From assembly GCA_027485575.1 (NCBI GenBank), contig JAIXQU010000085.1:1-39721 (forward strand): DNA of 39,721 nt, in the 5' to 3' direction. Numbering within the stretch: the first letter of the stretch is position 1; each line of letters begins with the position of its first letter. Source of the stretch: Cytophagaceae bacterium. GTDB taxonomy: Bacteria; Bacteroidota; Bacteroidia; Cytophagales; Flexibacteraceae. The notes beneath the pieces were generated by a model that did not search any database, was not told the DNA's origin, and saw only the letters and a program-made list of their open reading frames with translations. Positions 925 to 18,481 of this stretch are shown one piece after another. A program made the translations under genes and the position numbers.

Positions 925-935
925 AAAATCGAATT

Positions 936-973
936 AAAAAAAAGAGGCCAAAATATTTTTGGCCTCTTTTTTT
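936..973. terminator. Bidirectional Rho-independent terminator
   Basis: A perfect 13-base stem (AAAGAGGCCAAAA, 941-953, with its complement at 957-969) and a 3-base loop are flanked by an A-run on the left and a T-run on the right. It can therefore end the aldehyde dehydrogenase transcript on the plus strand and read-through from the HMG-CoA lyase operon on the minus strand. Confidence 0.92.
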
Positions 974-974
974 G

Positions 975-1170: not shown

Positions 1171-1176
1171 CCGGGA

Positions 1177-2040
1177 TCAATGAAAAATTTGCGGCAGAAA
1201 GGCAGAAGCCATCTGCAACTTTTCAAGATTTAGACCTGTTTCCAAATTTTGGTCTTTGGCCCATCCGATAATACTTTCAGTACTTAAATTACCTACCAGA
1301 TCGTCCTCCGCCATTGGGCATCCTCCAAATCCACCAAGTGCCACATCAAATTGCTTACACCCTCCTTCCCAGGCCGCAGCTATTTTTTCAGTTGCCAGGT
1401 AAGGATTAGAATGCAAATGGGCCGTCAAGTTTACGTTTTGCCAAACACCGGACAAAGCCAGAAACAAATCTTTAACAGATTGAGGACTCGCTCTTCCAAC
1501 CGTATCTGAAACAGAAATTTCTTTAACACCAAGATCTATCATGGTTTGGGCTTTTTCCCTAACTAAACCTGGCTCATATCTTTCTCCATACGGATTGCCA
1601 AATGCCATGCTTAAATAAACAACCAATATTTTATTTTTAGCCAGACATAAATCCTGAATTTTGGCCAATTCTTCAATGGCCTCGTTAATCGTCTTATTTG
1701 TATTTCTTTTTTGAAACTCCTCTGAAATGGATAATGGAAAACCAATGAATTGAATCTCCTCAAATTCTACAGCCTGTTCAGCGCCCCTCAGATTTGCAAT
1801 TATGGCCAAAAGTGCAGAATTGGTATTTTCTAATTCGAGCTTTCCAATAACTTCGGCTGTATCCCTTAGTTGGGGTATGGCTTTTGGGCTAACAAAACTT
1901 CCAAAATCAATCCGATTGAATCCGACTTTTAGCAAACTATTGATATAGTTTACTTTTGTTTCGGTTGGCACAAAATGAGCAAGGCCTTGCATGGCATCTC
2001 GAGGGCACTCATTTATGAATAAATCGTTTTTCCTGACCAT
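1177..2040 (-). CDS. Hydroxymethylglutaryl-CoA lyase
   Basis: A 287-residue TIM-barrel aldolase of the HMGL-like family. Family role: splits 3-hydroxy-3-methylglutaryl-CoA into acetoacetate and acetyl-CoA, the last step of leucine degradation. Seen: the N-terminal ECPRDAMQG motif (Arg14, Asp15, matching the substrate/metal residues of EVGPRDGLQ), FGSFVSPKAIPQLRD, metal-type histidines His208 and His210 in HLH, and the C-terminal GGFGGCPMAEDDLVGN with the catalytic cysteine (Cys241) and a metal-type asparagine (Asn251). Length is close to bacterial relatives. It follows the DUF3109 gene by 18 bases in the same direction, so the two are probably cotranscribed from the promoter near 2650. Other HMGL-like lyases or synthases are less likely given GGCP. 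Confidence 0.9.
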   Translation of the reverse strand: MVRKNDLFINECPRDAMQGLAHFVPTETKVNYINSLLKVGFNRIDFGSFVSPKAIPQLRDTAEVIGKLELENTNSALLAIIANLRGAEQAVEFEEIQFIGFPLSISEEFQKRNTNKTINEAIEELAKIQDLCLAKNKILVVYLSMAFGNPYGERYEPGLVREKAQTMIDLGVKEISVSDTVGRASPQSVKDLFLALSGVWQNVNLTAHLHSNPYLATEKIAAAWEGGCKQFDVALGGFGGCPMAEDDLVGNLSTESIIGWAKDQNLETGLNLEKLQMASAFLPQIFH

Positions 2041-2058
2041 AACTTTAAAAAAATATTT

Positions 2059-2637
2059 TCACAATTTACTTGCCAAATAAGCATCAGCAACCAATTCCAG
2101 TTCCTTATACCAATTCTCTCCAAACTTGGTTTTCAAGGCCTCTTTAAGAAATTTATACACAGGAACACCCAGGGTTTGACCTAAGGCACATGCTGGCTGG
2201 CATATATTCCATCTATGGTAATTGACTGCCACAAACTCCTTATGTTCTTTTACCCGAATTGGGTATAAGTGGCAGGAAATCGGTTTGCGAAAATCGACAG
2301 CCCCATTTTCAAAGGCTTGTTCTATTCCACATTTCAAAATGCCTTTATCATCATACACAGAGTAGGCGCATTCTTTACCCAAAATTGTAGGTGTACTCCA
2401 ATCCCCATCTTCATCTAAAATCCATTTTCCTTGAATTTCAATTTCCCTTCTGCCATTTTCACTGAGGTAGGGTTTGATTTGCGAATAAATCGAATCTAGT
2501 TTTATAGTTTCTTCCCTTGTCAAGGGTGCTCCCAAATCTCCCTCAACACAACAAGCTGCTTTACAAGCCTCTATATTGCAGACAAACTTTTCAGTTATTA
2601 TTTCTTCCGAGATAATTGTATTTTCGATTGCTATCAT
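2059..2637 (-). CDS. DUF3109 family cysteine-rich protein
   Basis: A 192-residue soluble protein of the DUF3109 family, widespread in Bacteroidota and of unknown function. It carries a cysteine set resembling YkgJ-type metal or iron-sulphur proteins: CNIEACKAACC near residues 20-30, ECAYS, LKCGIEQ, and a C-terminal part with ISCHLYPIR and ICQPACALG. Metal binding is an inference from this cysteine pattern. The ATG at 2637 sits 8 bases after a perfect TAAATTTG promoter box, which supports this start and suggests an almost leaderless mRNA. It is the first gene of a two-gene unit with HMG-CoA lyase; no functional link between the two is obvious. Confidence 0.88.
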   Translation of the reverse strand: MIAIENTIISEEIITEKFVCNIEACKAACCVEGDLGAPLTREETIKLDSIYSQIKPYLSENGRREIEIQGKWILDEDGDWSTPTILGKECAYSVYDDKGILKCGIEQAFENGAVDFRKPISCHLYPIRVKEHKEFVAVNYHRWNICQPACALGQTLGVPVYKFLKEALKTKFGENWYKELELVADAYLASKL

Positions 2638-2645
2638 TCAGAAGG

Positions 2646-2675
2646 CAAATTTACCTTGAAGATGGCAAAGCCAAA
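2646..2675 (-). promoter_or_regulatory. Bacteroidota-type promoter for the DUF3109-HMG-CoA lyase unit
   Basis: On the minus strand there is TTTG (2672-2675), an 18-base spacer, then TAAATTTG (2646-2653), a perfect match to the Bacteroidota -7 consensus TANNTTTG. A second TTTG at 2676-2679 would give a 22-base spacer. The start codon follows after 8 bases. Confidence 0.65.
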
Positions 2676-2790
2676 CAAAAAATTGAATGCATAAAACCGT
2701 AAGGCTTTCTTTGGAAAGATATTAAACCTACCCAAAAAATAAACATATAGAAATCAATACGATAACCTATTATTCGTTGGAAAATCAAAT

Positions 2791-3177
2791 ATGAAAATTC
2801 AATCCTTTGAGCAATTTTTAGAACAAGTTCCGGATGGCATAGCAGAACAGTTTGTCAAAACCAGACAAGTGATTGAAAGACTTGTTCCCAAGGCAAAATT
2901 AGAAATCAAATACAACACCCCATTTTTCACATACAAAGGGCTATTCATTTATTTTTCATTTTACAAAAAGAAGAATTATGTAGTTGGATTTTGCCAGGGG
3001 TTCAGAATGGAGGATGAGTTGAAAGTTCTGAAAGCCGACTCAGGTCAAAGTCAGGTCAGGCATTGGGTATTAGATTCAGAAACAATTTTAGATATAGATT
3101 TACTTGGCGCTTATATCATTGAAGCTGAAGAAATCCAACGAAATCACAAAGTTTTTTCAAAAAGGAAAGACAATTAA
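2791..3177 (+). CDS. DUF1801 (YdhG-like) domain protein
   Basis: A 128-residue single-domain protein of the DUF1801/YdhG family, small soluble proteins of uncertain function. Family signatures seen are the IKYNTPFFTYKG segment (the usual I-K-W/Y-xx-P-x-F/Y core), the following beta-rich part IYFSFYKKKNYVVGF, and a helical C-terminus. It is a single plus-strand gene between divergently and convergently oriented neighbours, so it is probably monocistronic. I see no convincing promoter box immediately upstream. Function is not predictable from context. Confidence 0.82.
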   Translation: MKIQSFEQFLEQVPDGIAEQFVKTRQVIERLVPKAKLEIKYNTPFFTYKGLFIYFSFYKKKNYVVGFCQGFRMEDELKVLKADSGQSQVRHWVLDSETILDIDLLGAYIIEAEEIQRNHKVFSKRKDN

Positions 3178-3207
3178 AAAATATCTTTCCAAATAAAAGA
3201 TTGGAAA

Positions 3208-4257
3208 TCAATGACCTTTTTCTGCCGGATGCGAATGATTGCAGCAGGTGCCGAACCAAAGGTCTTCTAAAGTCAAACTTGCACTTTCTTCAGGACGGAC
3301 CTCAATTGTCTTCTTTTGCCAAAGTTTTCGTTCCTCCTCCATTTCTTTGATTTGCTCTTCGCTTAACTTATAGTCCATCATGGCATTCAAATCTGGTTGG
3401 CCAGCATCCACCCAGGCTGTGTACCAGAAATCTGCAACCTGTTTAATGCTCGCCCTCATTCTCCTTTCTACTTGATTGCCAAGCATCTGGCTATACGCTT
3501 TGGAGTATTCTCTGCTGTAAACCTGGGTTGTTACATTTCCTCTTTGTTCGTATCCGTATTTTTTATCTTCCGGCCAGCTTGCATTTAAGTCTTTTTCAAA
3601 TCCCAAAACAGAATCTAAAGCCATGTGGGCTGCGATTACTGAGTTCCATGAACGGTCAAGTACTCGTTTTTCATATTCTGCCTGTCCTACAAAAAAGTCA
3701 TATTTATCTGAAAAAAGTTCTGGCAACCGGCTTTCCCAGAATCCATGAATTCCTTTTTGACCTGTTAGTTGCCCATTGTAATTCTCCGTGGTGTGAAGTG
3801 GAACATTGGAATCAGCTATATAATGCCCAAGATCAGATGCAATTCTTAAAATGGAGTTAGGATTTTTGGACTCAAATGCTTTTTGCAAACTGTACTTCAT
3901 CCGGTTCACTTCCCAGGGCACGATTCCGTATTCCATAAGGGTGTCTTCAGAATATTTTGCCACAGCATCATTCCATCTCCGGGGCATTTTCCATAACGCT
4001 GAATCCCCATACACATCAATATCAATAAAATGTTTGGGGGCTTCTCCCTTTACCGCATTTCGCCTTCTGTCCGGATTCACGGCATTTTCAGTTAAATAGA
4101 CTATGTTCCTTTTAAAAAAAGCTGACATAGGTTCGGGTAAACAGAATACTGCCAATCGATTAATCCTCTGGTGGGCATAAAAACCCCAGGAATACGTTTT
4201 CTGGCTGCCTAAAATGAGAAAAACAGAAAACAGGACAAATGGGTACCTTAATTTCAT
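3208..4257 (-). CDS. Secreted zinc-dependent phospholipase C / S1-P1 nuclease-like protein
   Basis: A 349-residue exported protein resembling the all-helical zinc phospholipase C/S1-P1 nuclease fold. A signal peptide (residues 1-23, hydrophobic core VLFSVFLILG) ends just before Trp24; in this fold the N-terminal Trp of the mature protein ligates zinc, so the WG after TYS fits. Other candidate zinc ligands: His29 in YAHQ, HFIDID, and DLGHYIADSNVPLHTTENY followed by HGFWE. The tail is odd: a charged helix, then WFGTCC and a His-containing end. The start is set at ATG 4257, not the in-frame TTG at 4272, because that TTG lies inside a perfect TAAATTTG promoter box. Whether the substrate is phospholipid or nucleic acid cannot be decided from the sequence. 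Confidence 0.8.
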   Translation of the reverse strand: MKLRYPFVLFSVFLILGSQKTYSWGFYAHQRINRLAVFCLPEPMSAFFKRNIVYLTENAVNPDRRRNAVKGEAPKHFIDIDVYGDSALWKMPRRWNDAVAKYSEDTLMEYGIVPWEVNRMKYSLQKAFESKNPNSILRIASDLGHYIADSNVPLHTTENYNGQLTGQKGIHGFWESRLPELFSDKYDFFVGQAEYEKRVLDRSWNSVIAAHMALDSVLGFEKDLNASWPEDKKYGYEQRGNVTTQVYSREYSKAYSQMLGNQVERRMRASIKQVADFWYTAWVDAGQPDLNAMMDYKLSEEQIKEMEEERKLWQKKTIEVRPEESASLTLEDLWFGTCCNHSHPAEKGH

Positions 4258-4269
4258 AAAATCAGGCCT

Positions 4270-4277
4270 CAAATTTA
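4270..4277 (-). promoter_or_regulatory. Promoter -7 box of the PLC-like gene
   Basis: TAAATTTG on the minus strand matches TANNTTTG exactly and lies 12 bases before the ATG at 4257, directly downstream of the infB terminator. A T-rich -33 region (the terminator T-run) is present but its TTTG spacing (15 bases) is short. Confidence 0.5.
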
Positions 4278-4292
4278 GGATTTATCATGAAA

Positions 4293-4320
4293 CAAAAAAG
4301 TCCCTGATTAAAGGGACTTT
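4293..4320 (-). terminator. Rho-independent terminator of the rimP-nusA-infB operon
   Basis: On the minus strand AAAGTCCCT pairs with AGGGACTTT around a 6-base loop, followed by a run of T. It begins about 20 bases after the infB stop. On the plus strand there is no comparable T-run, so it works in one direction. Confidence 0.9.
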
Positions 4321-4339
4321 CATATAAACTACATTATTT

Positions 4340-7300
4340 TTATAATGTTCTTTTTGTCTCTCTTTCTTCAAAAGATTCAATGGTATCACCAACTTCAATG
4401 TTGTTAAAGTTCTTGATCTTGACACCGCACTCATAGCCGAATTTAACTTCAGATGCATCATCCTTAAATCTTTTAAGTGCCTCCAGCTCACCTGTATGGA
4501 TTACAATTCCATCTCTGATGATTCTAATTCCATTGTTTCGCTTTATATAACCTTCGGTCACATAGCAACCAGCGATATTACCGAGTTTACTGATTTTGAA
4601 CACCTCACGGATTTCCACATTTCCAACAATAATCTCTTCAACCTTAGGAGCTAATAAGCCTTCCATTGCATCTTTAATATCATTGATGGCATCGTAAATG
4701 ATAGAATATAGCTTGATTTCAATCTCCTCATTTTCTGCTTGTCTTCTGGCCTGGGCAGAAGGTCTAACCTGAAAACCAAGAATAATGGCATCAGATGCGG
4801 ATGCCAACATCACGTCAGCCTCAGAAATCTGACCTACAGCCTTATGAAGGATTCTAACTGCTACTTCATCTGTTGATAGTTTCAACAAACTATCCGCCAG
4901 GGCCTCAACCGAACCATCCACATCACCCTTAATGATCAAGTTAAGTTCTTTAAATGTTCCAAGGGCAATTCTTCTTCCAATTTCATCAATTGTGATGTGT
5001 TTCTTGGTTCGAATAGATTGCTCTCTTTGTATCTGTTCTCTTTTGTTGGCTAATTCTTTTGCTTCCCGCTCATTCTCCATTACATTAAACTTATCACCAG
5101 CCTGAGGTGCATTGTTTAATCCTAATACCTGAACGGGAGTTGATGGCCCAGCTTTATCGATTCGAATACCGGTATCATCATACATGGCTTTTACTTTTCC
5201 ATAATAGGCACCGCAAAGCATGAAATCTCCCACCCGTAAAGTACCTGCCTGAACCAAAACAGTAGAAACATAGCCTCTTCCTTTATCAAGAGAGGCCTCA
5301 ATTACAGTACCCTGAGCTAATTTATTTGGATTTGCTTTTAATTCCAGAATATCAGATTCCAAAACTACTTTTTCCAATAGTTCAGAAATACCAATTCCTT
5401 TTTTGGCTGAAATTTCCTGAGATTGGTATTTACCACCCCAATCTTCAACAAGGAGATTTAAATTCGCAAGTTCCTCCTTAATTTTTTCCGGATTGGCTCC
5501 TGCTTTGTCAATTTTGTTTATGGCAATTACAATGGGTACGCCAGCAACCTGCGCATGATTAATGGCCTCTTTTGTTTGAGGCATAACCGAATCATCAGCT
5601 GCAACAACAATGATAACAACATCCGTTACTTTAGCTCCTCTGGCACGCATGGCTGTAAACGCTTCGTGGCCTGGAGTATCTAAAAAGGTAATATTTCTGC
5701 CTGATTCGGTTGTAACATCATATGCTCCAATATGTTGAGTAATTCCACCTGCTTCAGATGCTACTACTTTTGTCTTTCGGATATAATCCAGTAAAGATGT
5801 TTTACCATGATCCACATGGCCCATAATTGTTACAATCGGGGCTCTAACCACCAGGTCTTCTGCCAAATCCGGTTCATCTACTACATTTTCTTCCTCATCT
5901 GCGGAAGAAAAAACCGTTTCAAATCCAAATTCATCTGCAATAATGGTTAAGGCTTCTGCATCCAATCTTTGATTGATAGAAACAAACATTCCCAAGGACA
6001 TACAAGTTCCAATAACCTCATTTACAGACACGTCCATCAATGAAGCCAAATCTGAAACTGATACAAATTCAGTAAGTTTCAAGATTTTTGATGCTCCTTC
6101 GTCTTCCTGGTTATACCGATCGTTTTTATCCCTTGACTTTTTCTTACCGCCTCTTCCACCTCCCCGATTCATTGTGGCCTTTATCTGACCAGAAATTTGT
6201 CTGTTTGAATAACCAGGCCTGTTGTTATTTTGGTTTCCCTGACCTGGAGGTCTATTGGCATTTTGATTTCCCTGACCTGCAGGGCGATTGTTGTTTTGAT
6301 TTCCTTGTCCACCTGGTCGGTTGGTATTTTGACCCGATTGCTGATTGGCTGGATTTGGATTCCTGTTGCCTTGCTGACCTTGAGGGCTGCCTCCTGGTCT
6401 TGGACCTATATTCTGATTTTGACCCTGCTGGCCCTGAGGTGGTTGATTCCCTTTTGGTCCCTGGCCTTGACGATCGTTTTGGTTGCCATGCGAAGGACCT
6501 CCGCCAGAACCACCAACTGCGACAGGACCAGTCTTTAGTCTTTTTCTTTTTCGCTTTTCAGCTTCTGCCCTGCTTTCGCCTTGTTGTTTGGGCTTATTTT
6601 CAAACGCTTTTAAATCTATTTTACCAAGGACCGTTAACCCTTTTAGTTGGTCAGCCTCTGCCTTAATTAGTTCTGTAGGAACTTCTCCAGTCGGAATTTC
6701 AATAGGTACTTCAACTTTGGGAAGTTCTTTTGGCTCACTAACAGTCTCTTTTACAGGCTTTTCAACAAAGGTTTCTGCAACAGGAGGAATTTCAGCTACA
6801 ATCTTTTCAGGGACTTTTGGTGCCATCTCTGGTTCCTTAATTTCCTCTTTTGGCGATGATTTTTCCTCCTTAGGTTCTGCCTTTTCTTCCTTTTTCACAG
6901 GAGGGACTGGCACTACTGATTCTGCCTTTTTTGCCTCCTTTGTGGTCTTTTTCTTTGGATTCAGGTCTATCTTTCCAAGAATCTTTAAACCTTGAACCTG
7001 CCCTTCAGCTTTGATCAACTCAGGTTCTGCGGTAGCTTCAACCGGTGTTGAAACAGGTTCGCTTTTTACAACTTCAGGAGTAACAACTTTAACTTCTTCC
7101 TTTTTTTCTTCTGATTTCTGAACAACAACCGGCTTTTCAGCTTCTTTAACAACTGGTTTTTGTTCCTGAATTACAGGAGTTTTTACTGGAGGGTTAACAG
7201 GTTGTTGAAAGGTTGGCATTGTACGCCTGGCCATTGGAGCCTCATCTATCTCCTCATCATTTGGCCTTCTCCTTTCTTTATGAAGATCCCTGTCGATTAC

Positions 7301-7531
7301 AATTTTTTCGTTATGCTTGTTGCTCATGGGAATTCCAGGAGCCTCTTTCTTCTCCTGGGCCGATGAGGAATACTCTTTACGCAACAACTCAACTTCCCCT
7401 ATTGTTAATTTTGCAACAGGGCTTCGTTCTACTGTTGAACCGGTTTTATGCAAATATTCAATAATGGTATCTAACCCAAGATTGAACTCTTGCATCGCCT
7501 GACGTATTTTAAAGACTCTTTCCTCGGACAT
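4340..7531 (-). CDS. infB: Translation initiation factor IF-2
   Basis: A 1063-residue GTPase that brings initiator fMet-tRNA to the 30S subunit and promotes subunit joining. Order of parts: an N-terminal helical domain ([20 protein letters not shown]), a very long charged Pro/Glu/Lys linker, a Gly/Asn/Gln/Pro-rich segment with three 33-base tandem repeats, the IF2-N domain, then the G domain from about residue 563 with G1 GHVDHGKT (about 570), G2 GGITQHIG, G3 DTPGH, G4 NKID and SAKKG, followed by domains II, III and the C-terminal tRNA-binding domain. The linker contains two copies of an ELIKAE...GL..LGKIDL motif. It is last in the operon after nusA (56-base gap) and ends at a strong terminator. 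Confidence 0.98.
6215..6313 (-). repeat. Three 33-base tandem repeats inside infB
   Basis: Units at 6215-6247, 6248-6280 and 6281-6313, plus a partial fourth, encode 11-residue repeats of the type NRPxGQGNQNx. They fall in the low-complexity linker before the IF2-N domain. The copies differ at several third positions, so they are not a recent expansion. Confidence 0.85.
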
Positions 7532-7587
7532 ACTTTATATTACTGTGAACTACTATATTTTAGCTTTGGATCTGGTGAAAAATACTT

Positions 7588-8841
7588 TTAATCTTCAAAC
7601 TCAAGTTTGAAAATATTAATAACTTCATTAATAGTTTCCTCCTCAAGATCTGTTCTTCTTACGAGATCTTCAACAGGAACAGAGAGGACACTTTTGGCTG
7701 TATCCAATCCAATTTTTCTGAATTCATCCAAAATCCATGAATCAATTTCATCATCAAATTCCTCCAAAGCAATATCATCTATTTCTTCTTCAGAACCATC
7801 AGAATCACGGAAAACATCTATCTCCTTGCCAATAAGACGACCTGCCAACTTAATATTCTGACCACCTTTACCAATTGCCAAAGATACTTGATCTGGTTTT
7901 AAGAAAACAGAAACTCTGTTCGCTTCACTATCGATTTTTATGCTGGTAATCTTTGCAGGACTCAAAGCACGTGAAATATACAATTCCATATTGTCTGTAA
8001 AGTTAATTACGTCAATATTTTCATTTTCCAACTCCCTTACAATATTGTGTATACGGGAGCCTTTCATTCCAACACATGCACCTACAGGATCTATTCTGTC
8101 ATCAAATGACTCAACAGCGACCTTGGCCCTTTCACCAGGTTCCCGTACTATTTTTTTAATGGCAATTACATTGTCATCAATTTCAGGTACTTCCAGTTCA
8201 AATAGTCTTTCAAGGAAAACCGGAGATGTTCTGGATAAAATGATTTTTGGAGTTCCATTTATCATTTCGACCCTATGAACAACGGCTCTGATGTTATCTC
8301 CTTTTCTATATCTGTCTTTCGGAATTTGCTCGCTTTTTGGCATAATGAGTTCATTACCAACTCCGTCAATAAGCAAGACTTCTCTGTTTCCAACCTGATA
8401 AACTTCGCCAATCAACAAATCACCTACTTTATCTTTGTATGCCTGAAACAGATTTTCTTTTTCCAGATCTTTAACCTTCTGAACCAAGGTTTGCTTTGCG
8501 GTTAAGATTCCTCTTCGGCCAAAATCCAGTTCTATATTGATTTCTTCTGCCAATTCCTCTCCAACCTCCAGGTCTTTTTGCAATTTGATTGCATCCGAAT
8601 ATGGAATTTTATCATAATCCCAAATGTCTTCAGATTCATCGTCGACAACTTCACGAAATCTCCATATCTCCAAATCACCCTTGTCGATATTGATGATTAC
8701 ATCAAAATTGGAATCCTCTACATACTTTTTACGGATTATAGAGCGAAAGACCTCCTCCAGGATTTTTATCATGGTAGGCCGGTCTATGTTTTTTAGTTTG
8801 GCGAAGTCTGAAAATGACTCTATGAGCGTTTTGCTATCCAT
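7588..8841 (-). CDS. nusA: Transcription termination/antitermination factor NusA
   Basis: A 417-residue RNA polymerase-binding factor that modulates pausing, intrinsic termination and antitermination. Domains in order: the N-terminal polymerase-binding domain (about 1-125), S1 (GDLLIGEVYQVGNREVLLIDG, about 130-200), KH1 (with VGACVGMKGSRIHNIVREL) and KH2 (VSLAIGKGGQNIKLAGRLIGK), then a short acidic C-terminal helical region containing VPVEDLVRRTDLEEETI. It lacks the two full acidic repeats of the E. coli protein. The start is 2 bases after the rimP stop, and infB follows 56 bases after its own stop, the classic arrangement. The leader hairpin before rimP makes feedback by NusA itself an attractive possibility. 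Confidence 0.97.
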   Translation of the reverse strand: MDSKTLIESFSDFAKLKNIDRPTMIKILEEVFRSIIRKKYVEDSNFDVIINIDKGDLEIWRFREVVDDESEDIWDYDKIPYSDAIKLQKDLEVGEELAEEINIELDFGRRGILTAKQTLVQKVKDLEKENLFQAYKDKVGDLLIGEVYQVGNREVLLIDGVGNELIMPKSEQIPKDRYRKGDNIRAVVHRVEMINGTPKIILSRTSPVFLERLFELEVPEIDDNVIAIKKIVREPGERAKVAVESFDDRIDPVGACVGMKGSRIHNIVRELENENIDVINFTDNMELYISRALSPAKITSIKIDSEANRVSVFLKPDQVSLAIGKGGQNIKLAGRLIGKEIDVFRDSDGSEEEIDDIALEEFDDEIDSWILDEFRKIGLDTAKSVLSVPVEDLVRRTDLEEETINEVINIFKLEFED

Positions 8842-8843
8842 TT

Positions 8844-9329
8844 TTACTTAAACGAAACTGTCACTTTTGCTTTAACAATATTTTCTAACAGAATTTCCAC
8901 AAGTTTTAATTGGGCTTTTTTCCCTTTTAATTTTTCTTCTATTTCCAATTGCAATTCATTTTTTTGAAATGCAATCAACTTTCCTTCCACAATCTGACCT
9001 TTTTCTTTCAATTCAACCAGAAGTTTCCTGTTGATATTTTTTAAAAATTGCCTTTCACTTGAAAGTGGAAAATCTAAACCGGGTGAAGCAACTTCCAGCG
9101 TATAGGCATGTTCAAAAAAATCTGCCTCATCTAGAAATTTGCTCAATTTTCGGCTGTAAACCGCACATTCTTCAATTGTAATTCCAATGTCACTATCCAT
9201 CAAAACCTGAACTTTTCCCTCTTTCACCTTTCCCAAACCAACATTTACTTTAACCAGAAAATGATTTTCCGAGTCTAAATTTTGGTTTAAAAAAAGTTCC
9301 AGGCTCTCCTGTATTTGTGTAGATGTCAT
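8844..9329 (-). CDS. rimP: Ribosome maturation factor RimP
   Basis: A 161-residue two-domain protein needed for 30S subunit assembly. Seen: an N-terminal alpha/beta domain with VKVNVGLGKVKEGKVQVLMDSDIGITIEECAVYSRKL and the family motif YTLEVASPGLDFPL (typical E/DVSSPG.DRPL), then a smaller SH3-like C-terminal domain. Identification also rests on position, first gene of rimP-nusA-infB. The ATG at 9329 lies only one base beyond the T-run of a terminator-like hairpin, with the promoter on the far side of that hairpin. Confidence 0.95.
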   Translation of the reverse strand: MTSTQIQESLELFLNQNLDSENHFLVKVNVGLGKVKEGKVQVLMDSDIGITIEECAVYSRKLSKFLDEADFFEHAYTLEVASPGLDFPLSSERQFLKNINRKLLVELKEKGQIVEGKLIAFQKNELQLEIEEKLKGKKAQLKLVEILLENIVKAKVTVSFK

Positions 9330-9330
9330 T

Positions 9331-9361
9331 AAAAAAACAAGAGGGGACTTTTCGTCCCCTC
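9331..9361 (-). terminator. Terminator-shaped hairpin in the rimP leader (possible attenuator)
   Basis: On the minus strand an 8-base GC-rich stem (GAGGGGAC with GTCCCCTC, 9341-9348 and 9354-9361) and a 5-base loop are followed by TTGTTTTTTT, the full intrinsic terminator form, and then directly by the rimP ATG (9327-9329). It can end transcripts of the upstream asparagine-synthetase-like gene. A well-matched promoter lies upstream of it, so it would also form in the leader of the rimP operon mRNA. Confidence 0.85.
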
Positions 9362-9375
9362 CTTCAAATGCGGTA

Positions 9376-9407
9376 CAAAAGTAATCAGTACTTTGACCAA
9401 AACCAAA
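9376..9407 (-). promoter_or_regulatory. Promoter of the rimP-nusA-infB operon
   Basis: On the minus strand TTTG (9404-9407), a 20-base spacer and TACTTTTG (9376-9383) match the Bacteroidota consensus (TTTG, 19-21 bases, TANNTTTG) completely. It is the best promoter in the window. The expected transcript start falls just upstream of the hairpin at 9341-9361. Confidence 0.75.
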
Positions 9408-9431
9408 GGTCTACATGAAATTGGTATTTTC

Positions 9432-11438
9432 TTACCCAAAAAAAGAGTTTCGCCAAATCCCAAGATTGACAATTCTCCACAGAAAATCATTGTTTTGAGA
9501 ATTTGACATTAATACAAGTCTATCCCAATCCCGTTTTACTTTTCTAGAATCGATAAAATCATCTAAGTCATTGGTAATGAACTCTTTCAAGTCATCTTTC
9601 GCGTCCAATAGCCAATTGAGTTCTAATTTGCTTTCTTTATAAACTCCATTTTTTAATAAAAACTCGGGATAAACACCACGCATCGCTTTTCTTAAAAGAT
9701 TGCCGGAAACACCTGAACGAATTTTATAAACAGCGCTGGACTTAATCATAGATTCTGCCAGTTCCCTATCGGAAACAAAAGGATGTCGGATTTCTATTTT
9801 ATGGTATTGAGAGTTGCGATCCGAAGTTCTTAATTTTTCTTTCACCAAAGAGCCGGAAATTTCTTTTAGAAGCAGTTGATTCAGGCTTATTGGAGAATTG
9901 TTGATATTTTCCTCAAGGTTTTTCGAATACCTATCAACAAAATCCACTTTAATGTATTGAAATTCTTCCTGGTTGGTCTTTATCAGGGTCTCTTTCAGGT
10001 CATTAGCGGTTCCTTTAAAAAGCCATCTTTTACCCAAATTTTGAAGAAGCTTCCACCTGCTTAATTCATTACTTTGGTAGTTAAAAAAATTATCAAAAAA
10101 CATGGAGTACTGCCTCAAGCCAACAAGATCATCCGTAAATTGCTCAAAATGAGAAGAAAGAGTTGAGAACAACTGATTTCCGCCGGTCTCTTCTATAATG
10201 ACTTTAAAGTTGTTCGCCTTGGCAACTTCCAACATTTTAAATTGGGAAAAAACCTCAAGACTTGAAAAGGGAGTATCCTGAAGGTAGCAAACCTTCTTTA
10301 TATTTTCCCTAAAGTCATCATAGCTACAAATTGACCTTACCATTTCTATTTCAAGGTCTTTGGCTATTTTTTTTGATTTCTCAAAGCTTACATTGTTAAC
10401 AGAATCATCAGAAACCAATTCTCTGAAAATACCAGAATAGATTTCAGAGGACATTGGTTTTTCTTTTGATTTAATTTCATGGATGGATTCTTTCAGCAAA
10501 TAGGGAAATGCCAAAGTTTCCAAACTGGAATCAATATGGTAAGCAGTTTTTAAACCCGGAGTTAAATGTTCGTTTACGCTGGAAATTAACGACTTACGGA
10601 GTCTATGAGCCAAGGTTGAAACCTTATTTCTACTATATCTTTCCACCTTGGAATCAGTTGTAAGGTGGAAATAGCTCCAAATTTTTATAGTTCCTTTAGG
10701 CAATAGAATTGAGAATCCTGTTCCAGGCAATAGCTCTGATATTCCCCTAAAAATGGATTGGCTATTGGTTTCGGTCTGGCCTAAAATCAAATAATCATAA
10801 ACAGCTGACTTGCTTATTTTTTTTGATACAAAAGGAAGAGAAATTAATCCCTTTGGCTCAGAAGCAAAGGCAAAATAATTTTCATTTTGACAATAATAAA
10901 ATGGCCTGATGCCAAAGGGATCTCTTGCACCAAAAACCTTATTCTCTGTCCTGTCGTAAATTACAAATGAAAAAGAACCTTCAAGTTTTGACAGGATTTT
11001 TTCTTTCCAGATTTTATAAGCATTCAATACGATTTCTGCATAGTCCTCAGAGTCAAAATCTAAACCCGCATCTCTGATATTTTTTGCCAATTGGTTGGCA
11101 TTCAAAATCTCGCCATCAAAAACAATCCAATAATCGCCATTAGAAATTTGAAAAGGTTGGTGAGAAAAATTATTCTTTGGGTTGATCGTCCCTAACCGGT
11201 GACCCATACCGAACCAGGAATCTGGACTTACGTTGTTCTTTTCCTTTAATTCTAATTTCTGAATAAAATTCCTGTTTGTGGACTCCCTAAAATGGCTTGA
11301 ATTGCCCTGATCGTGGAAAAAAGTATAGCCCTCATCCTGGTCTCCTCTATGTGGCTGCTTATCCAAAATCTGATATACATAATCCGATATTGGGTTATCT
11401 GCTTTTCCCGTTAATAATACTCCACCTAAAGCACTCAT
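9432..11438 (-). CDS. Asparagine-synthetase-like protein with degenerate active sites
   Basis: A 668-residue protein with the full AsnB layout: an N-terminal class II glutamine amidotransferase domain (about 1-200) and a C-terminal synthetase domain (about 270-668). The fold signatures remain (GHRLGTI, FDGEILN, LEGSFSFVIYD, ARDPFGIRPFYY, RHPFVSDREL), but the catalytic residues do not. The N-terminal nucleophile Cys2 is Ser (AGT, one base from Cys), the oxyanion Asn of NGE is Asp108, the SGGLDS pyrophosphate loop reads HIDSS (301-305), and SGEGADE reads EETGGNQ (416-422). I infer a pseudoenzyme or an enzyme with new chemistry. It is 16 bases after the WG-repeat gene in the same direction, and the reading frame is intact, so it is under selection rather than decaying. 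Confidence 0.85.
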   Translation of the reverse strand: MSALGGVLLTGKADNPISDYVYQILDKQPHRGDQDEGYTFFHDQGNSSHFRESTNRNFIQKLELKEKNNVSPDSWFGMGHRLGTINPKNNFSHQPFQISNGDYWIVFDGEILNANQLAKNIRDAGLDFDSEDYAEIVLNAYKIWKEKILSKLEGSFSFVIYDRTENKVFGARDPFGIRPFYYCQNENYFAFASEPKGLISLPFVSKKISKSAVYDYLILGQTETNSQSIFRGISELLPGTGFSILLPKGTIKIWSYFHLTTDSKVERYSRNKVSTLAHRLRKSLISSVNEHLTPGLKTAYHIDSSLETLAFPYLLKESIHEIKSKEKPMSSEIYSGIFRELVSDDSVNNVSFEKSKKIAKDLEIEMVRSICSYDDFRENIKKVCYLQDTPFSSLEVFSQFKMLEVAKANNFKVIIEETGGNQLFSTLSSHFEQFTDDLVGLRQYSMFFDNFFNYQSNELSRWKLLQNLGKRWLFKGTANDLKETLIKTNQEEFQYIKVDFVDRYSKNLEENINNSPISLNQLLLKEISGSLVKEKLRTSDRNSQYHKIEIRHPFVSDRELAESMIKSSAVYKIRSGVSGNLLRKAMRGVYPEFLLKNGVYKESKLELNWLLDAKDDLKEFITNDLDDFIDSRKVKRDWDRLVLMSNSQNNDFLWRIVNLGIWRNSFFG

Positions 11439-11454
11439 AGTTGTGGTAGTTTAT

Positions 11455-12945
11455 TTAAAAGATAAAAAGGTTGAAATTGTGATTGTCAATTTGGATATCT
11501 TCAAAATTCAAATCAAAAAGGGGTTTACCATTCTTATAAAAAATTCCTGTTTTTCCATCCCGGCAAATTTTTAACAGGTTGGTATTGGCCTCAATAATAT
11601 TAAAAAATCGTGGAGTTATGGTAATTTGTGCGTTGGTATTTGCAAAACCTGACCAACTATTTTTTACAATTCTCCACCCTTTTCCTGGCATTTTCAAGAT
11701 GCTGTCATAAACTAAAGGTAATAAAAAATAGCCCGATTTATCGATAAGGCCATATTTCCCATCTTTGGAAACAATGGAAAACCCATTCTGAAAAGAGGTT
11801 ACACTGGAAAAATTCGGCTGAATTTTTATTTTTTCGTCTTTATCGACAAAACCCCAGAAATTACCAAGTTTGATCGCTGCAAGCCCTTCCTCAAAGTTTA
11901 ATGTTGAATCATACCTGCAGGCAATCCGGATATACCCTGACCTATCCACAAAACCATATCTTCTGCCAGCTTTTGAACTTATCAGACCTTCATATACCAT
12001 ACCAAGGGCAGAAACAGAGCCATTGACTTTTGTTTTTTGGCCCGATATACCCACAAATAAATATCCTTTGGATGTTTTTACAGCAAGCATTGTATCCTCA
12101 ATCTGAACAATATTTTCAGGATTTGGAATCCTTATGGATTTACCGCTGGTCGTTATCAAAAATTGGTTTTTTGCTGAAAATAACAAGGCAAAACTTTGAT
12201 TGATGTAAGCCACAGAATCTCCCCTTTTTGAGAATGAAATCGATTGAGACTTAAACTGGATTGAATCTTTATTTTTATCTATTAAAAAGTCCTTGTTCCA
12301 CCAAAAGGCTGATTCAAACTGCTTAATTGCTTTTCCCTGGCCCACTGGGGTCCAATTACTATCAGATTTTACGTAATTTAACCATGGACTTATTTCGATT
12401 TTTTCTCCAGAAACCGGATAATAACTTTGATTTAGATTTGAATCCACACAAACCAAACCTCTCTTTGAATAAAGAAACAATAGCCTTTCAGAAGCTTTGA
12501 TTGAATCGGCAACCATTTCTGTTGGAAGTCCAGGTTGAAAAACCCAAACATTTTCTCTTTTTCCTAAAATCTGGTTTCTCCACAACTCTACTTTTGAAAA
12601 CAAATATCCTTGCAGGGTTTTCAGTGTCAAAAGGTCAAAAATCTGAATTTTTCCATTTAATTTCAGAAAGCATTTTTCTTTGTTTCCAGGTTGAAAACCA
12701 GCATTTTTTTCCCTCCATACGGGTTGAAACGGGCTTTTATTGAATAAAATAGTCTCCCTACCAAGGCTGATACAATAAATATCTTCATTGAGGGCAAAAA
12801 GGGAATCAGCAAAAACCGAAAACTTGAGCTTACCTTCTAAATCAGTACACTTCCAGTTTTTTGGCTGTCCATAGCCTTGATTCAAGTTTAAAATGAAAAT
12901 TAAAACAAAAAAGAATTGTTTTTTGGGAAGACGTTTAAAGGACAT
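11455..12945 (-). CDS. Secreted WG-repeat protein
   Basis: A 496-residue exported protein. The N-terminus has a basic stretch followed by a hydrophobic core (FFFVLIFILNLNQ) and probable cleavage after GYG. The C-terminal half carries WG-type repeats: YGFVDRSGYIRIACRYD, WGFVDKDEKIKIQPNF, YGLIDKSGYFLLPLVYD, then weaker SGFANTNAQITITPRF and TGIFYKNGKPLF copies. The N-terminal half is beta-rich without a domain I recognise. WG repeats are thought to form surface-exposed beta structures for binding; function here is unknown. The ATG at 12945 follows a perfect TAATTTTG box by 7 bases. The asparagine-synthetase-like gene is next in the same operon, 16 bases away; one is exported and the other cytoplasmic, so a direct partnership is not obvious. 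Confidence 0.82.
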   Translation of the reverse strand: MSFKRLPKKQFFFVLIFILNLNQGYGQPKNWKCTDLEGKLKFSVFADSLFALNEDIYCISLGRETILFNKSPFQPVWREKNAGFQPGNKEKCFLKLNGKIQIFDLLTLKTLQGYLFSKVELWRNQILGKRENVWVFQPGLPTEMVADSIKASERLLFLYSKRGLVCVDSNLNQSYYPVSGEKIEISPWLNYVKSDSNWTPVGQGKAIKQFESAFWWNKDFLIDKNKDSIQFKSQSISFSKRGDSVAYINQSFALLFSAKNQFLITTSGKSIRIPNPENIVQIEDTMLAVKTSKGYLFVGISGQKTKVNGSVSALGMVYEGLISSKAGRRYGFVDRSGYIRIACRYDSTLNFEEGLAAIKLGNFWGFVDKDEKIKIQPNFSSVTSFQNGFSIVSKDGKYGLIDKSGYFLLPLVYDSILKMPGKGWRIVKNSWSGFANTNAQITITPRFFNIIEANTNLLKICRDGKTGIFYKNGKPLFDLNFEDIQIDNHNFNLFIF

Positions 12946-12952
12946 AAAGTGT

Positions 12953-12960
12953 CAAAATTA
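12953..12960 (-). promoter_or_regulatory. Promoter -7 box of the WG-repeat/asparagine-synthetase-like unit
   Basis: TAATTTTG on the minus strand matches TANNTTTG exactly, 7 bases before the ATG. The -33 region is T-rich (TTTC at a 19-base spacing) but has no perfect TTTG. Confidence 0.5.
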
Positions 12961-13002
12961 GAAAGGATATTTGCACTCTGAAAAATCCATCCGGGCAACA
13001 AC

Positions 13003-14043
13003 TTGAGAACTTTTTATAATTATTCGGCTAAATGGCGGGAATTCAAAGAGTTATGTTCTACTTTGACCGGAAAGAAACTGTCAAACTATTTTTTACTACT
13101 AGTTGGTTTCTTTCTATCCAAATGGTTTAGAAGGCCTTTTCAGTTTGGCCTACCCTTCAGCATTTCTATAGAACCTACCACAAGTTGCAATCTAAGATGT
13201 CCGGAATGTCCGAGTGGGTTAAGGTCTTTTACCCGACCCACCGGAATGCTGGAAAGTGGCCTGTTCTTAAAAATAAGTGATGAATTGAAGCCTACTCTTT
13301 CCTATTTAACTTTTTACTTTCAAGGAGAGCCTTATTTGAATCCCTCCTTCCTGGACATGGTTAAGCTGGCTTCTGATAGAAAAATATATACCTCAACCTC
13401 TACAAATGCACATTATTTAAAGGATGATATAGCCAGGAAGACCATATTATCTGGACTTCATCGGATCATTATATCTATCGATGGAACCAGCCAGGAAACC
13501 TATGAAAGCTACCGATTGGGAGGAAGCCTTGAAAAAGTGATTGAAGGGACTAAAAACCTTGTGCGGTGGAAGGAAGAACTAAAGTCTGAAACACCGCATA
13601 TAATATTTCAATTTCTTGTTGTAAGGCAAAATGAACATCAGATTGAAGATGTTTACAAGCTTGCTGAAGAACTTGGTGTAGATGAAGTAAAACTAAAAAC
13701 CGCCCAGATTTATGATTTCGAAAATGGGTCAGATTTAATTCCTAACCAGGAAAAATACAGCAGATATAAAAAGCTAACCAGTGGAAAGTTTTCCATAAAA
13801 AACCCATTATTAAACCAATGCTGGCAAATGTGGCAATCCTGTGTAATAACCTGGGATGGAAAAATAGTGCCTTGTTGCTTTGACAAAGATGCAAGTCACA
13901 CTTTAGGCAATTCGCAGTCCACTTCTTTTAGCGAAGTTTGGAAGGGGGAAGAGTACAAAAAATTTAGAAAGTCCATTCTAAAATCCCGAAAGGAAATTGA
14001 CATCTGCACAAACTGCACCGAAGGAATGACTGTCTGGGCTTAA
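13003..14043 (+). CDS. Radical SAM/SPASM domain protein
   Basis: A 346-residue radical SAM enzyme. The [4Fe-4S]/SAM motif is CNLRCPEC (Cys62, Cys66, Cys69), followed by the FQGEP segment that binds SAM and IIISIDG. A C-terminal SPASM-type cysteine set (near residues 273, 280, 291-292 and CTNC close to the end) should hold auxiliary clusters. Residues 27-40 are hydrophobic (NYFLLLVGFFLSK), so membrane association is possible. The start is TTG at 13003: an in-frame stop lies at 12979 and no ATG comes before the catalytic motif. The gene is divergent from the WG-repeat gene with a 57-base shared upstream region. The substrate is unknown; SPASM enzymes modify peptides, proteins or sugars. Confidence 0.88.
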   Translation: MRTFYNYSAKWREFKELCSTLTGKKLSNYFLLLVGFFLSKWFRRPFQFGLPFSISIEPTTSCNLRCPECPSGLRSFTRPTGMLESGLFLKISDELKPTLSYLTFYFQGEPYLNPSFLDMVKLASDRKIYTSTSTNAHYLKDDIARKTILSGLHRIIISIDGTSQETYESYRLGGSLEKVIEGTKNLVRWKEELKSETPHIIFQFLVVRQNEHQIEDVYKLAEELGVDEVKLKTAQIYDFENGSDLIPNQEKYSRYKKLTSGKFSIKNPLLNQCWQMWQSCVITWDGKIVPCCFDKDASHTLGNSQSTSFSEVWKGEEYKKFRKSILKSRKEIDICTNCTEGMTVWA

Positions 14044-14056
14044 GAAAATCTTAAGC
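14038..14056. terminator. Palindrome spanning two convergent stop codons
   Basis: GCTTAAGA (14038-14045) and TCTTAAGC (14049-14056) form a perfect 8-base stem with a 3-base loop. It contains the stop codons of both the radical SAM gene and the opposing small gene. There is no adjacent T-run on either strand, so its role as a terminator is uncertain. Confidence 0.4.
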
Positions 14057-14404
14057 AGCCTCGTTCTTTTTTAAACTGTCTAATTTGTGAAATCTGCTAA
14101 GCAGGGCATCCATCATTTCAGAATCTTGGTATTGGTACTGCTCAAGGATATGAACCATAATACCCACAAGTCTGGTTAAACCGAGAAGTTCATTCTGTTC
14201 TTTTGAACTTAAATGACCTAACTTATCCAGCTTATCCAGTTTTTGGATTTGGGACAAAAGATCAAAGGATTGGTCGGCAATTCTTCTGAGCATGCGGGAC
14301 GCTGTCTCTGGATTATTCTTTGTGTGGGCACTAAAGTCCTGACTTAGAATAAAGTTGTATGTGCCAGAGTCAAAAGAATTCATTTTGGTATGGATATGGT
14401 ACAT
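14051..14404 (-). CDS. Small helical hypothetical protein
   Basis: A 117-residue protein I do not recognise. It looks almost entirely alpha-helical and soluble, with a near-repeat LDKLDKLGHL, many leucines at helix-like spacing, and no signal peptide or membrane segment. A helical bundle or adaptor is possible but is only an inference. The ATG at 14404 is used; Met8 (ATG at 14383) is an equally possible start. It converges on the radical SAM gene, with the two stops 7 bases apart inside one palindrome, and is divergent from guaA. Codon use looks like its neighbours. Confidence 0.65.
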   Translation of the reverse strand: MYHIHTKMNSFDSGTYNFILSQDFSAHTKNNPETASRMLRRIADQSFDLLSQIQKLDKLDKLGHLSSKEQNELLGLTRLVGIMVHILEQYQYQDSEMMDALLSRFHKLDSLKKNEAA

Positions 14405-14533
14405 AAAATTAATAAGGATTAGATTTTAGAACGTGCTTTTTTTTCGGACAGCATGATCTGAGAATCCAAAACTGCTACAATTCGGAGCGCAATTTATTAA
14501 ATTATTATTAATTAAATTACATGGATATTGAAT

Positions 14534-14564
14534 CTTGCCAAAATGAAAGACTATTATACCTTTG
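14534..14564 (+). promoter_or_regulatory. guaA promoter
   Basis: CTTG (14534-14537), a 19-base spacer and TACCTTTG (14557-14564), a perfect TANNTTTG box. The ATG at 14569 follows after 4 bases, so the transcript would begin at or next to the start codon. Confidence 0.6.
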
Positions 14565-14568
14565 GCCC

Positions 14569-16095
14569 ATGCAAGACAAGGTTATTATCCTCGATTTCGG
14601 TTCTCAATATACCCAACTAATTGCCCGCAGAATCAGAGAGTTGGAGGTTTATTGCGAGATTGTTCCTTACCATAGTAAATCGCTCTCTTTCCAGAATATT
14701 AAAGGTGTAATTTTTTCCGGAAGTCCCCGTTCTGTGAGGGAAGAAAATCCCATTGGTCCAGACCTTGACTGGTTGGATAGGGAAATTCCGGTATTGGGAA
14801 TTTGCTATGGTGCCCAATGGCTAGCCCAAAATTTTGGTGGAACAGTATCTCCAAGCAATGTACGGGAATATGGCAGAGCCAAAATCCATATTGAAACCGG
14901 CAGTGTATTAATGGATGGTTTGAAAGACCAGAGTCAGGTTTGGATGTCTCATAGTGACACCATCAGTAAAATTCCGGATGGTTTTGAAATAATAGCCACA
15001 ACAGACTCTATACCTGTGGCAGGATTTGCCCATAAAAACAAACCCATTTTCGGCGTTCAATTTCACCCCGAAGTTATCCACTCTGATTGCGGCATGGACT
15101 TGCTACGGAATTTTCTTTTTGAAATCTGTAAAATAGAACCCGTTTGGACAGCGGGAAACTTCATTTCAGAAACCATCAATGAAATAAAAAACACAGTTGG
15201 AGACGGAAATGTAATCCTGGGGCTTTCCGGTGGAGTTGATTCTTCTGTTGCAGCCTTACTTCTTCATGAAGCGATTGGTAATCAACTCTTTTGCATTTTT
15301 GTGGACAATGGGCTTTTAAGGAAAAATGAGTATAAAGAAGTTTTGCATTCCTACCGCAATATGGGTTTGCAGGTTAAAGGCGTTGATTCATCAGCAAGAT
15401 TTTATGCCGGGCTTGATGGGATTTCAGATCCTGAAAAAAAGAGAAAGACAATCGGAAGAATTTTTATTGAAGTTTTTGAAGAAGAATCTCATAAAATTCC
15501 AAATGCCCAGTTCTTAGGCCAGGGAACTATTTATCCGGATGTAATTGAATCAGTATCCGTCAATGGCCCTTCTGTAACCATAAAATCTCATCATAATGTT
15601 GGTGGACTACCTGATTTTATGAAATTAAAAATTGTGGAGCCACTCAGAAGCCTGTTTAAGGATGAGGTAAGAAGAGTTGGTGCGGCCCTTGGATTAGAAC
15701 CAAAAATATTGAACCGCCATCCTTTTCCAGGACCTGGATTGGCCATTCGGATTCTTGGGGATATCACTCCTCAAAAGGTTCAATTGCTTCAGGAAGCAGA
15801 CTCTATTTTTATCAATCTTCTAAAAGAACATGGGTTTTACGATAAGGTCTGGCAGGCCGGGGTGATTTTACTTCCAATACAAAGTGTTGGAGTAATGGGA
15901 GATGAAAGAACCTATGAACAAGTGGTTTGTTTAAGGGCAGTAAGCAGCCTTGATGGTATGACTGCAGATTGGGTTGATTTGCCTCATTCATTCCTGGCTG
16001 AGGTTTCTAACCAGATTATAAATAACGTAAAAGGAATAAACCGGGTTGTTTATGACATTAGCTCCAAACCACCAGCAACCATTGAATGGGAATAA
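14569..16095 (+). CDS. guaA: GMP synthase (glutamine-hydrolysing)
   Basis: A 508-residue enzyme that makes GMP from XMP, ATP and glutamine, the last step of guanine nucleotide synthesis. N-terminal class I amidotransferase: the start [21 protein letters not shown] is typical, nucleophile Cys79 in GICYGAQ, and the His-Glu pair in FHPEV. C-terminal ATP-pyrophosphatase: LSGGVDSS near residue 220, then the dimerisation domain ending in KPPATIEWE as in orthologues. An in-frame ATG exists at 14521, but the TACCTTTG promoter box lies between the two, so 14569 is preferred and gives the usual family N-terminus. It is a single gene, convergent with the CDP-sugar operon. Confidence 0.97.
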
Positions 16096-16132
16096 AAGCC
16101 TGGCTTTTTTAGGAATCCTGATCGTCAGGGTT
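16094..16132. terminator. Terminator region between guaA and the CDP-sugar operon
   Basis: AAAAGC (16094-16099) pairs with GCTTTT (16103-16108), with TTTTTT ending the element on the plus strand; the stem is short. A second hairpin, CCTGA-TCG-TCAGG (16117-16129), overlaps the 3' end of the opposing DUF6056 gene but lacks a T-run. Plus-strand termination for guaA is plausible and the minus-strand role is weak. Confidence 0.5.
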
Positions 16133-17531
16133 TAGGTAATAAATGGATATACTTTTTACCATGGTATTGGGCATAAAAATTATCGTACCAGGGTTGAGGA
16201 TAAATGCCAATGTCACCGAAGAAAATAGTTTTGGGTTTATGCTCAAGCGGTTTAACCCAAATGCTATCTCCGGGATTATTTTCAACCAATTCAGCCCTCA
16301 TTTTTCTTTCTAAATCAAACTCACGGGCATCTCCGGATTTCAAATCATTGAAAGCTTGAACAAAATTATTGGAGAAGAATAAACTGGTAGCCATCAAAAT
16401 CAATAAGGGAAAAAATAGTTTTTTCCCAAAAGCCGGAAATGGATTAAAATTCTGATTTTCCAAATATTGTTTCCAAAAAGCGACATTGACCATATACAAT
16501 ATCAAAAAATTAAAAATCAGGGCATTGGCCGTTCTTCCTTGAATCATCCCTTCACCTAAAAAAGAGGGTACAAAGCAAAAAAAAGACAAAAACAGGGAAA
16601 TCAAGCTTAAGGCTATCAAATACGGCCTTTCCAATAATGGTACTTTTTTTGAAACGGGGAGCCACCAAACAAAGATCAATAAAAGAAAAAAACCTGGGTT
16701 AGAGAGCCAATCGACCAGGCTATCTAAATATCCTGAAAAAGAATTGTTGATAACTTCACTATAGGTTCTTTTTAAACTGCTGCTGGCCTGCATCCTATAT
16801 TTTGTGGCTGGTGAGAAAAGTACCAAACCTGTAGAAAATGTGGAAGCAAACAAAAGCAAACTCATGCCAAAATGTGGCGTTCTATCTTTAACAAGTAAGT
16901 AAAGCCAAACACTTCCTGTGATTGCTAAACCAAACATCATGGCCATTTCGTTGCTCCCGGCAATGAGGAAAAGCAGAAAACCTTGAGCTAAAATCTGAAA
17001 GAAAGAAACCACCGAAAGATTACTCCATCGGGCAAATGGAATTTTATTGATCCACCAACTAATTAAAACCAACAACATGGCATTGGCTGGTTGATAACAA
17101 ATGGCTCCTCCAAAATAATAAAAGGCCTCCACAACCGAAGGAACAGAACAGACATAGACTGAAAGCGCCATTAAGCAAACCACCCATACATTCCTTAAAG
17201 GAAGCAAGGCGGCTGTCTTAAACCAATAAAAAAAACCAGTACCTAATAAAAACAAAAGCAACCAGGTATTAAGTTGATAGCCAAGCAACCACCTGTAAAC
17301 CAACGGATTTATAGACAAAAGAAAAGCAGCGGTATATCTACTGCTCCAACTGTAATACCAGCCAATTGTGGATGTAATTGGCCCCCATTTCATCGCTGGA
17401 ATTGTACATATATAATCATCTGCCGAGGGATGATTATAAAATGCCAACCATAAAAAAGGAATGATACTAACCGAAAAAAGAGCCCCAATAAACCAAAACA
17501 AAAGCTTTTGAGGTGGTAAAAAATCTTTCAA
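16125..17531 (-). CDS. DUF6056-type polytopic membrane protein, probable GT-C-like glycosyltransferase
   Basis: A 468-residue protein with about ten or more hydrophobic helices. Seen: a first helix (residues about 11-32), then a loop with HPSADDY and WYYSWSSRY, the acidic-pair plus W..R pattern found in DUF6056 proteins and reminiscent of the catalytic first loop of GT-C enzymes. The C-terminal tail after the last helix is soluble and charged. It is the last gene of the operon, 6 bases after the GT2. A lipid-phosphate-sugar-making GT2 next to a polytopic protein matches the logic of GtrB/GtrC-type glycan modification, so I infer transfer of a sugar from the lipid carrier on the outer face of the inner membrane. 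Family assignment is by pattern and not certain. Confidence 0.65.
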   Translation of the reverse strand: MKDFLPPQKLLFWFIGALFSVSIIPFLWLAFYNHPSADDYICTIPAMKWGPITSTIGWYYSWSSRYTAAFLLSINPLVYRWLLGYQLNTWLLLFLLGTGFFYWFKTAALLPLRNVWVVCLMALSVYVCSVPSVVEAFYYFGGAICYQPANAMLLVLISWWINKIPFARWSNLSVVSFFQILAQGFLLFLIAGSNEMAMMFGLAITGSVWLYLLVKDRTPHFGMSLLLFASTFSTGLVLFSPATKYRMQASSSLKRTYSEVINNSFSGYLDSLVDWLSNPGFFLLLIFVWWLPVSKKVPLLERPYLIALSLISLFLSFFCFVPSFLGEGMIQGRTANALIFNFLILYMVNVAFWKQYLENQNFNPFPAFGKKLFFPLLILMATSLFFSNNFVQAFNDLKSGDAREFDLERKMRAELVENNPGDSIWVKPLEHKPKTIFFGDIGIYPQPWYDNFYAQYHGKKYIHLLPKP

Positions 17532-17537
17532 GAACTA

Positions 17538-18476: not shown

Positions 18477-18481
18477 AAATT

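Follow-up and report, generated by a model that had tools for sequence, protein, structure and literature searches.

The rimP-leader was named by Naville and Gautheret (2010; PMC2965389), who proposed NusA as its effector and raised RimP as another possibility. The main text of that work names the element for Firmicutes and Gammaproteobacteria, refers to E. coli work of 1985 and contains no word beginning with 'Bacteroid', the species lists being placed in the supplement. In B. subtilis, according to a 2025 review (PMC12288461), NusA is autoregulated through NusA-stimulated termination in its own 5' leader, and autoregulation by NusA is presented as a reported case in both B. subtilis and E. 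coli (PMC12288461, PMC2965389). A 2021 study of E. coli describes rimP leader fusions that are lower in a Rho mutant (PMC7815308), which suggests that other factors may matter as well. As for Bacteroidota, a structured 5' element upstream of rimP was described in 2021 for Flavobacterium psychrophilum and other Flavobacteriaceae genera, without an Rfam hit (PMC9723704). The main text of the B. thetaiotaomicron map (Theta-Base, PMC7366714) mentions neither rimP nor nusA, and none of the papers found on the rimP-, ylxS- or nusA-leader, judged by title and abstract opening, concerns Bacteroidota.

The rimP leader in the window

The window, i.e., the whole analysed stretch of 39,721 nucleotides from a Cytophagaceae bacterium, carries the rimP-nusA-infB operon on the minus strand, from position 9329 down to 4340. 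Its first gene, rimP (8844..9329, ATG at 9329-9327), was assigned from profile matches, the best of which has an E-value of 8.7e-27; among the 25 RimP models listed all matches are below the curated cut-offs, and the Pfam RimP_N match on the rimP product is above its cut-off. It is followed on the same strand by nusA (7588..8841; TIGR01953, 353.8 bits, above cut-off), the proposed source of the feedback, and by infB, encoding IF-2 (4340..7531; TIGR00487, above cut-off). A terminator-like hairpin detected by the site scan directly 3' of infB (4296..4321, minus strand) is the likely end of the operon. Upstream of rimP lies a co-directional asparagine-synthase-like gene (9432..11438, minus strand; TIGR01536, below cut-off).

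The original prediction described a promoter, an 8-base GC-rich hairpin and a T-run with a single base between it and the rimP ATG. This description proved accurate, the stem in full comprising 10 pairs. Read directly on the minus strand, the order is the TTTG-N20-TACTTTTG promoter (9407-9376), the hairpin (9363-9339), the T-run and the rimP ATG. Promoters of the Bacteroidota type consist of a TTTG element at -33 and a -7 box; here the former is found at 9404..9407 and the latter, TACTTTTG, at 9376..9383, with a spacer of 20 bases, the assignment of the -7 box being based on its sequence and on the recurrence of TANNTTTG in the strict matches of relatives (see below). Given the usual distance to the -7 box, transcription is predicted to start within 9368..9372. 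The putative terminator hairpin (9339..9363) is built of the 5' stem AGGAGGGGAC (9363-9354), the loop GAAAA (9353-9349) and the 3' stem GTCCCCTCTT (9348-9339); six of its 10 pairs are G-C, the inner eight (GAGGGGAC/GTCCCCTC) are formed without a break, and the stem-loop stretch has a folding energy of -18.9 kcal/mol. The U-tract that follows (9331..9338) consists of G 9338 and seven T (9337-9331), separated by the single A 9330 from the ATG, which thus lies 9 nt downstream of the stem end.

The shape of the hairpin alone is no proof of its function, since terminator-like sites in positions 1-20000 are not more numerous than in shuffled sequence (16, the rimP-leader hairpin being top-ranked, vs. 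a mean of 19.2), and the proof must therefore come from relatives. Folding of the 96-base leader stretch yields -24.3 kcal/mol, while shuffles yield -17.1 (sd 3.3); the z-score is -2.2, and 7 of 200 shuffles are as good.

Recurrence of the hairpin in Bacteroidota

The search for RimP was positive for 158 of the 194 order genomes and for 214 of 218 in a phylum sample. Thirty-six genomes of the order have no RimP match at E 0.001; among the 20 of them listed, 18 are small (0.7-1.6 Mb), and RimP may be lost or too diverged in these organisms. The leaders analysed came from 160 genomes. The 90 leaders of the order were chosen from the 158 by rank of the RimP score, genomes G133, G153 and all after G165 being omitted; the rest of the class contributed 37 of its 44 rimP-containing genomes, and other classes of the phylum 33 of 160, the latter spread over families. 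Start codons of relatives were placed by a fixed rule and may in some cases be incorrect.

Two detectors were applied to these leaders. The strict one, requiring an unbroken stem of at least 6 pairs with at least 4 G-C and at least 5 T in 9, found a hairpin in 79 of 90 leaders of the order, 31 of 37 from the rest of the class and 21 of 33 from other classes, against 9/801, 9/325 and 3/297 upstream control windows, respectively (21/1423 in total), and 0.3, 0 and 0.6% of shuffles. With the looser detector, based on RNAfold (hairpin plus T-tract, dG <= -7), 86/90, 37/37 and 32/33 leaders were positive, the background being 38/267, 23/111 and 11/99 in upstream windows and 17/180, 4/74 and 15/66 in base shuffles. 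For the control gene guaA, 3 of 30 leaders were positive (30 loci out of 55 genomes with a guaA match). The comparison of rimP leaders across Bacteroidota, which the original prediction proposed as a check, thus speaks for conservation of the hairpin (86/90, 37/37 and 32/33 by the RNAfold-based detector) and, judged by this recurrence before rimP, the rimP-leader hairpin is beyond chance.

No hairpin with dG <= -7 was found in four of the 90 order leaders (L056, L060, L062 and L065) and in one leader from another class (L142). The upstream gene is divergent in all four of the order loci, which may represent natural losses of the hairpin.

The -7 box was looked for in the 45 nt that precede the stem. 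TANNTTTG is present there in 72 of 79, 31 of 31 and 6 of 21 strict matches from the order, the rest of the class and other classes, the base-shuffled expectation being 3.6, 1.05 and 0.75. Taking the order and the rest of the class together, a -7 box is located upstream of 103 of 110 strict matches, at a median distance of 24 nt; the strict match of L083 is a hairpin upstream of the L083 promoter. Promoter box, hairpin and T-run are all present in the rimP leader of Sphingobacterium psychroaquaticum.

In five leaders from other classes (L141, L146, L155, L156 and L162, belonging to families f36, f43, f57, f47 and f31) inspection by eye revealed two tandem hairpins before rimP, both followed by a T-run; of these leaders, L146, L155 and L162 alone have two sites by the detector. 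In most of them the first hairpin is G-first, and the second is C-first; for Gammaproteobacteria the tandem order given in PMC2965389 is the opposite. Such hairpins could pair mutually, or the first of them could end the upstream gene.

Stem polarity, U-tracts and pairing

The 5' arm is G-rich in 109 of 110 strict matches from the order and the rest of the class, the only tie being L083, with its hairpin before the promoter. Among 30 ordinary 3' terminators in the same loci, at least one of which entered the count from both strands, 9 are G-first, 17 C-first and 4 ties (order: 8, 8 and 4; rest of the class: 1, 9 and 0). Elsewhere in the phylum the G-first polarity of leader stems is lost, with 12 G-first vs. 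10 C-first stems in other classes. The genome of the window itself uses both polarities, as inferred from 16 occurrences of GGGG..CCCCTTTT and 17 of CCCC..GGGGTTTT (2 and 7, respectively, when the patterns are read backwards; strands and overlaps are counted). Since the rows are related, these polarity counts are not to be converted into a probability.

Strongly NusA-dependent terminators have weak U-tracts. The leader U-tracts do not show this weakness: they contain 6.9 T of 9, as compared with 7.1 in the 30 ordinary 3' terminators (p 0.28), and the idea of weak U-tracts in rimP leaders was dropped on these figures.

The stretch from the assumed transcription start to the stem has a median length of 19 nt in leaders of the order and the rest of the class. 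Duplex energies revealed no antiterminator in this stretch in 103 such leaders: its pairing with the 5' arm of the stem (-1.15 kcal/mol) is no better than in shuffles (-1.10) and in 0 of 103 leaders is stronger than the hairpin itself. Scanned with the Rfam covariance models, the window yielded nothing at gathering score. An antiterminator or a riboswitch was set aside on account of the short 5' stretch, the shuffle-level pairing and this Rfam result. The Rfam family of rimP leaders, which is presumably RF01770 and is gammaproteobacterial in scope, was likewise absent from the window at gathering score and from 12 loci searched up to E 1. Four weak matches of any kind were obtained in these 12 loci up to E 1. 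One is L20_leader (24.7 bits at a gathering score of 58.7, E 0.79), located at 9328-9439 of the window (1982-2093 of L001) on the minus strand, i.e., in sense orientation on the rimP leader; another, STnc320, overlaps the L108 hairpin in antisense. Each is absent from the other loci among the 12, and both are probably chance matches.

Covariation was analysed in an alignment (A3) of 103 distinct sequences from the 110 strict matches of the order and the rest of the class, its rows having been chosen for the presence of a stem. Changes on both sides of a pair were found in 61 cells vs. 25 in shuffles, none of 500 shuffles scoring as high. Covariation nevertheless gives the stem weak support, and pair counting does not prove its register, since partners slid by +1 to +3 columns toward the 3' end score about equally (75.0, 80.2 and 78.8% of cells paired vs. 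78.4% for the true partners). In the alignment fitted to the hairpin model R1, the eight pairs are formed in 67, 83, 69, 67, 83, 86, 82 and 50 of 88 rows; the rows represent 86 loci, since L044 and L075 each supply two and L104 supplies none (the model search covered 87 loci). R1 has 35 matches up to E 1 in the genome of the window, other terminators included, and so cannot single out rimP leaders. The exact hairpin GGGGAC-N3-6-GTCCCC occurs in this genome in the rimP leader and at only two other places, both at most about 30 nt after a stop codon and flanked by T-runs for either strand, as is usual for 3' terminators of the ordinary kind. By eye, leaders of other classes have quite different stems followed by the same kind of T-tract, which favours termination as the role of the element.

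Proposed attenuation and its relation to known systems

We suppose, with a probability of roughly two in three, that the hairpin is an intrinsic terminator in the leader of the rimP-nusA-infB operon and that read-through is set by the polymerase machinery, most likely through NusA feedback. The terminator would be located in a leader of about 40 nt, so that RNA polymerase, having started at the promoter just upstream, would have the hairpin formed almost immediately and would then either stop at the U-tract or continue into rimP. It is probably the transcription machinery itself that makes this choice: as neither an aptamer nor an antiterminator is visible, regulation should act directly on the polymerase. 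NusA, the product of the second gene, would most likely stabilise the hairpin in the exit channel and increase termination; surplus NusA would consequently lower the expression of its own operon. The attenuator as such is well supported by the sequence comparison. The start site, the termination at this place, its partial character and the setting of its level by NusA are what we infer, and NusA as the effector would fit the published B. subtilis and E. coli cases together with the lack of a visible antiterminator. Of the attenuator with NusA feedback put forward in the original prediction, the promoter-proximal intrinsic terminator, which recurs across Bacteroidota and does not depend on the neighbouring gene, holds up well, and the part assigned to NusA would follow by analogy.

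The hairpin could also be read as an ordinary 3' terminator of the co-directional asparagine-synthase-like gene, rimP being transcribed by read-through. The stop codon of this gene is 68 bases before the hairpin, and the upstream gene is co-directional in all four sampled genus-mates too, so that in the window and in these genomes the hairpin may additionally end upstream transcripts. In the set as a whole, however, the upstream neighbour (called with a 200-aa reading-frame cut-off) is divergent in 60 of 90 genomes of the order, 19 of 37 from the rest of the class and 9 of 33 from other classes, 88 of 160 altogether, and 84 of these 88 have the hairpin (dG <= -7), which in them is not a neighbour's terminator; co-directional neighbours number 23, 10 and 19 (52 of 160), and 7, 8 and 5 (20) are undecided. 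A looser cut-off of 80 aa gives 61 of 90 divergent neighbours in the order. Moreover, the -7 box lies between the neighbour and the hairpin, and 12 of 18 other R1 matches inspected in the genome start less than 50 nt past a co-directional stop, most of them within 20 nt; as to the remaining ones, four are the same hairpins on the other strand and two (L210, L222) do not fit. For the family this reading is largely refuted by the sequence data, and we regard it as very improbable for the window.

Nearly as improbable is a role mainly in translation, by masking or hindering the rimP start, or in protection of the mRNA 5' end, with termination being incidental. The stem in the window does end 9 nt before the ATG, within the expected ribosome footprint. 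Nevertheless, the start lies 7-56 nt past the outermost G-C pair in the order and 10-69 nt past it in the rest of the class, although some starts may be misassigned (the 86 nt of L083 refers to its hairpin before the promoter), while the stem and the T-tract, the latter needed by neither role, are kept. Control of access to the start codon, also suggested originally, is therefore unsupported as the main role. An attenuator whose effector is not NusA but, e.g., RimP, NusG, Rho, polymerase speed or the level of a nucleotide is less easily dismissed, yet still unlikely in our view. The same recurrence data agree with it, the G-rich 5' arm in 109/110 leaders as compared with 3' terminators (9 G-first, 17 C-first, 4 ties) suggests a factor recognising this arm, and RimP was raised as a possibility by Naville and Gautheret (PMC2965389); the cases reported in B. 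subtilis and E. coli, on the other hand, are those of NusA autoregulation.

With attenuation under NusA feedback, Bacteroidota would join the bacteria in which a basic feedback circuit acts on the transcription machinery. As the leaders seem to allow little beyond the polymerase and the factors bound to it, they could make a clean system for asking whether NusA alone is sufficient to set termination, and they suggest reporter constructs as well as a control point for three core genes. A bolder version, which we consider doubtful, reduces the rimP leader of the class to a minimal switch of promoter, terminator and gene. In it a factor, probably NusA, would keep the stem G-first by reading the 5' arm as an RNA sequence and not solely as part of a hairpin. 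The class would in that case possess a sequence-specific target of NusA, and NusA might be bound and titrated by the terminated RNA of about 40 nt.

Among the described systems, the Flavobacterium psychrophilum element resembles the leader in being a transcribed 5' region of the same gene in the same phylum; the description in PMC9723704, by which rather than by sequence the two were compared, neither calls it a terminator nor ties it to the rimP-leader or NusA. The NusA attenuator of B. subtilis shares with the Bacteroidota leader an intrinsic terminator in the 5' leader of a NusA-encoding operon (PMC12288461). NusA dependence is reported for the former and would be expected by analogy for the latter. 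The closest likeness is to the rimP-leader of Naville and Gautheret, a short hairpin upstream of rimP-nusA-infB, as found in the window. Both have a G-rich 5' arm and a C-rich 3' arm (GAGGGGAC/GTCCCCTC in the window, with the same polarity in the strict matches counted above). In both, a T-stretch follows the stem; the described element is located 4-130 nt from the start, and in the window the stretch is T7 and the stem ends 9 nt before the ATG. The general form of the rimP-leader is without an antiterminator, in line with 0 of 103 leaders here. Its core, GGGc(...)gCCC, compares with GGGGAC/GTCCCC in the window and often in relatives, where GGG and CCC are present and the C and G are placed further in; other relatives have GGGGGC or GGGAAC. 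The leader predicted in the window falls far short of the length of 180 nt stated for that of B. subtilis. The attenuator in the rimP leader is, therefore, already known as a kind, and what we describe is its Bacteroidota version, recurrent and ordinary in kind, the new elements being the census of Bacteroidota, the independence from the neighbouring gene, the short promoter-terminator-gene layout and the G-first stem.
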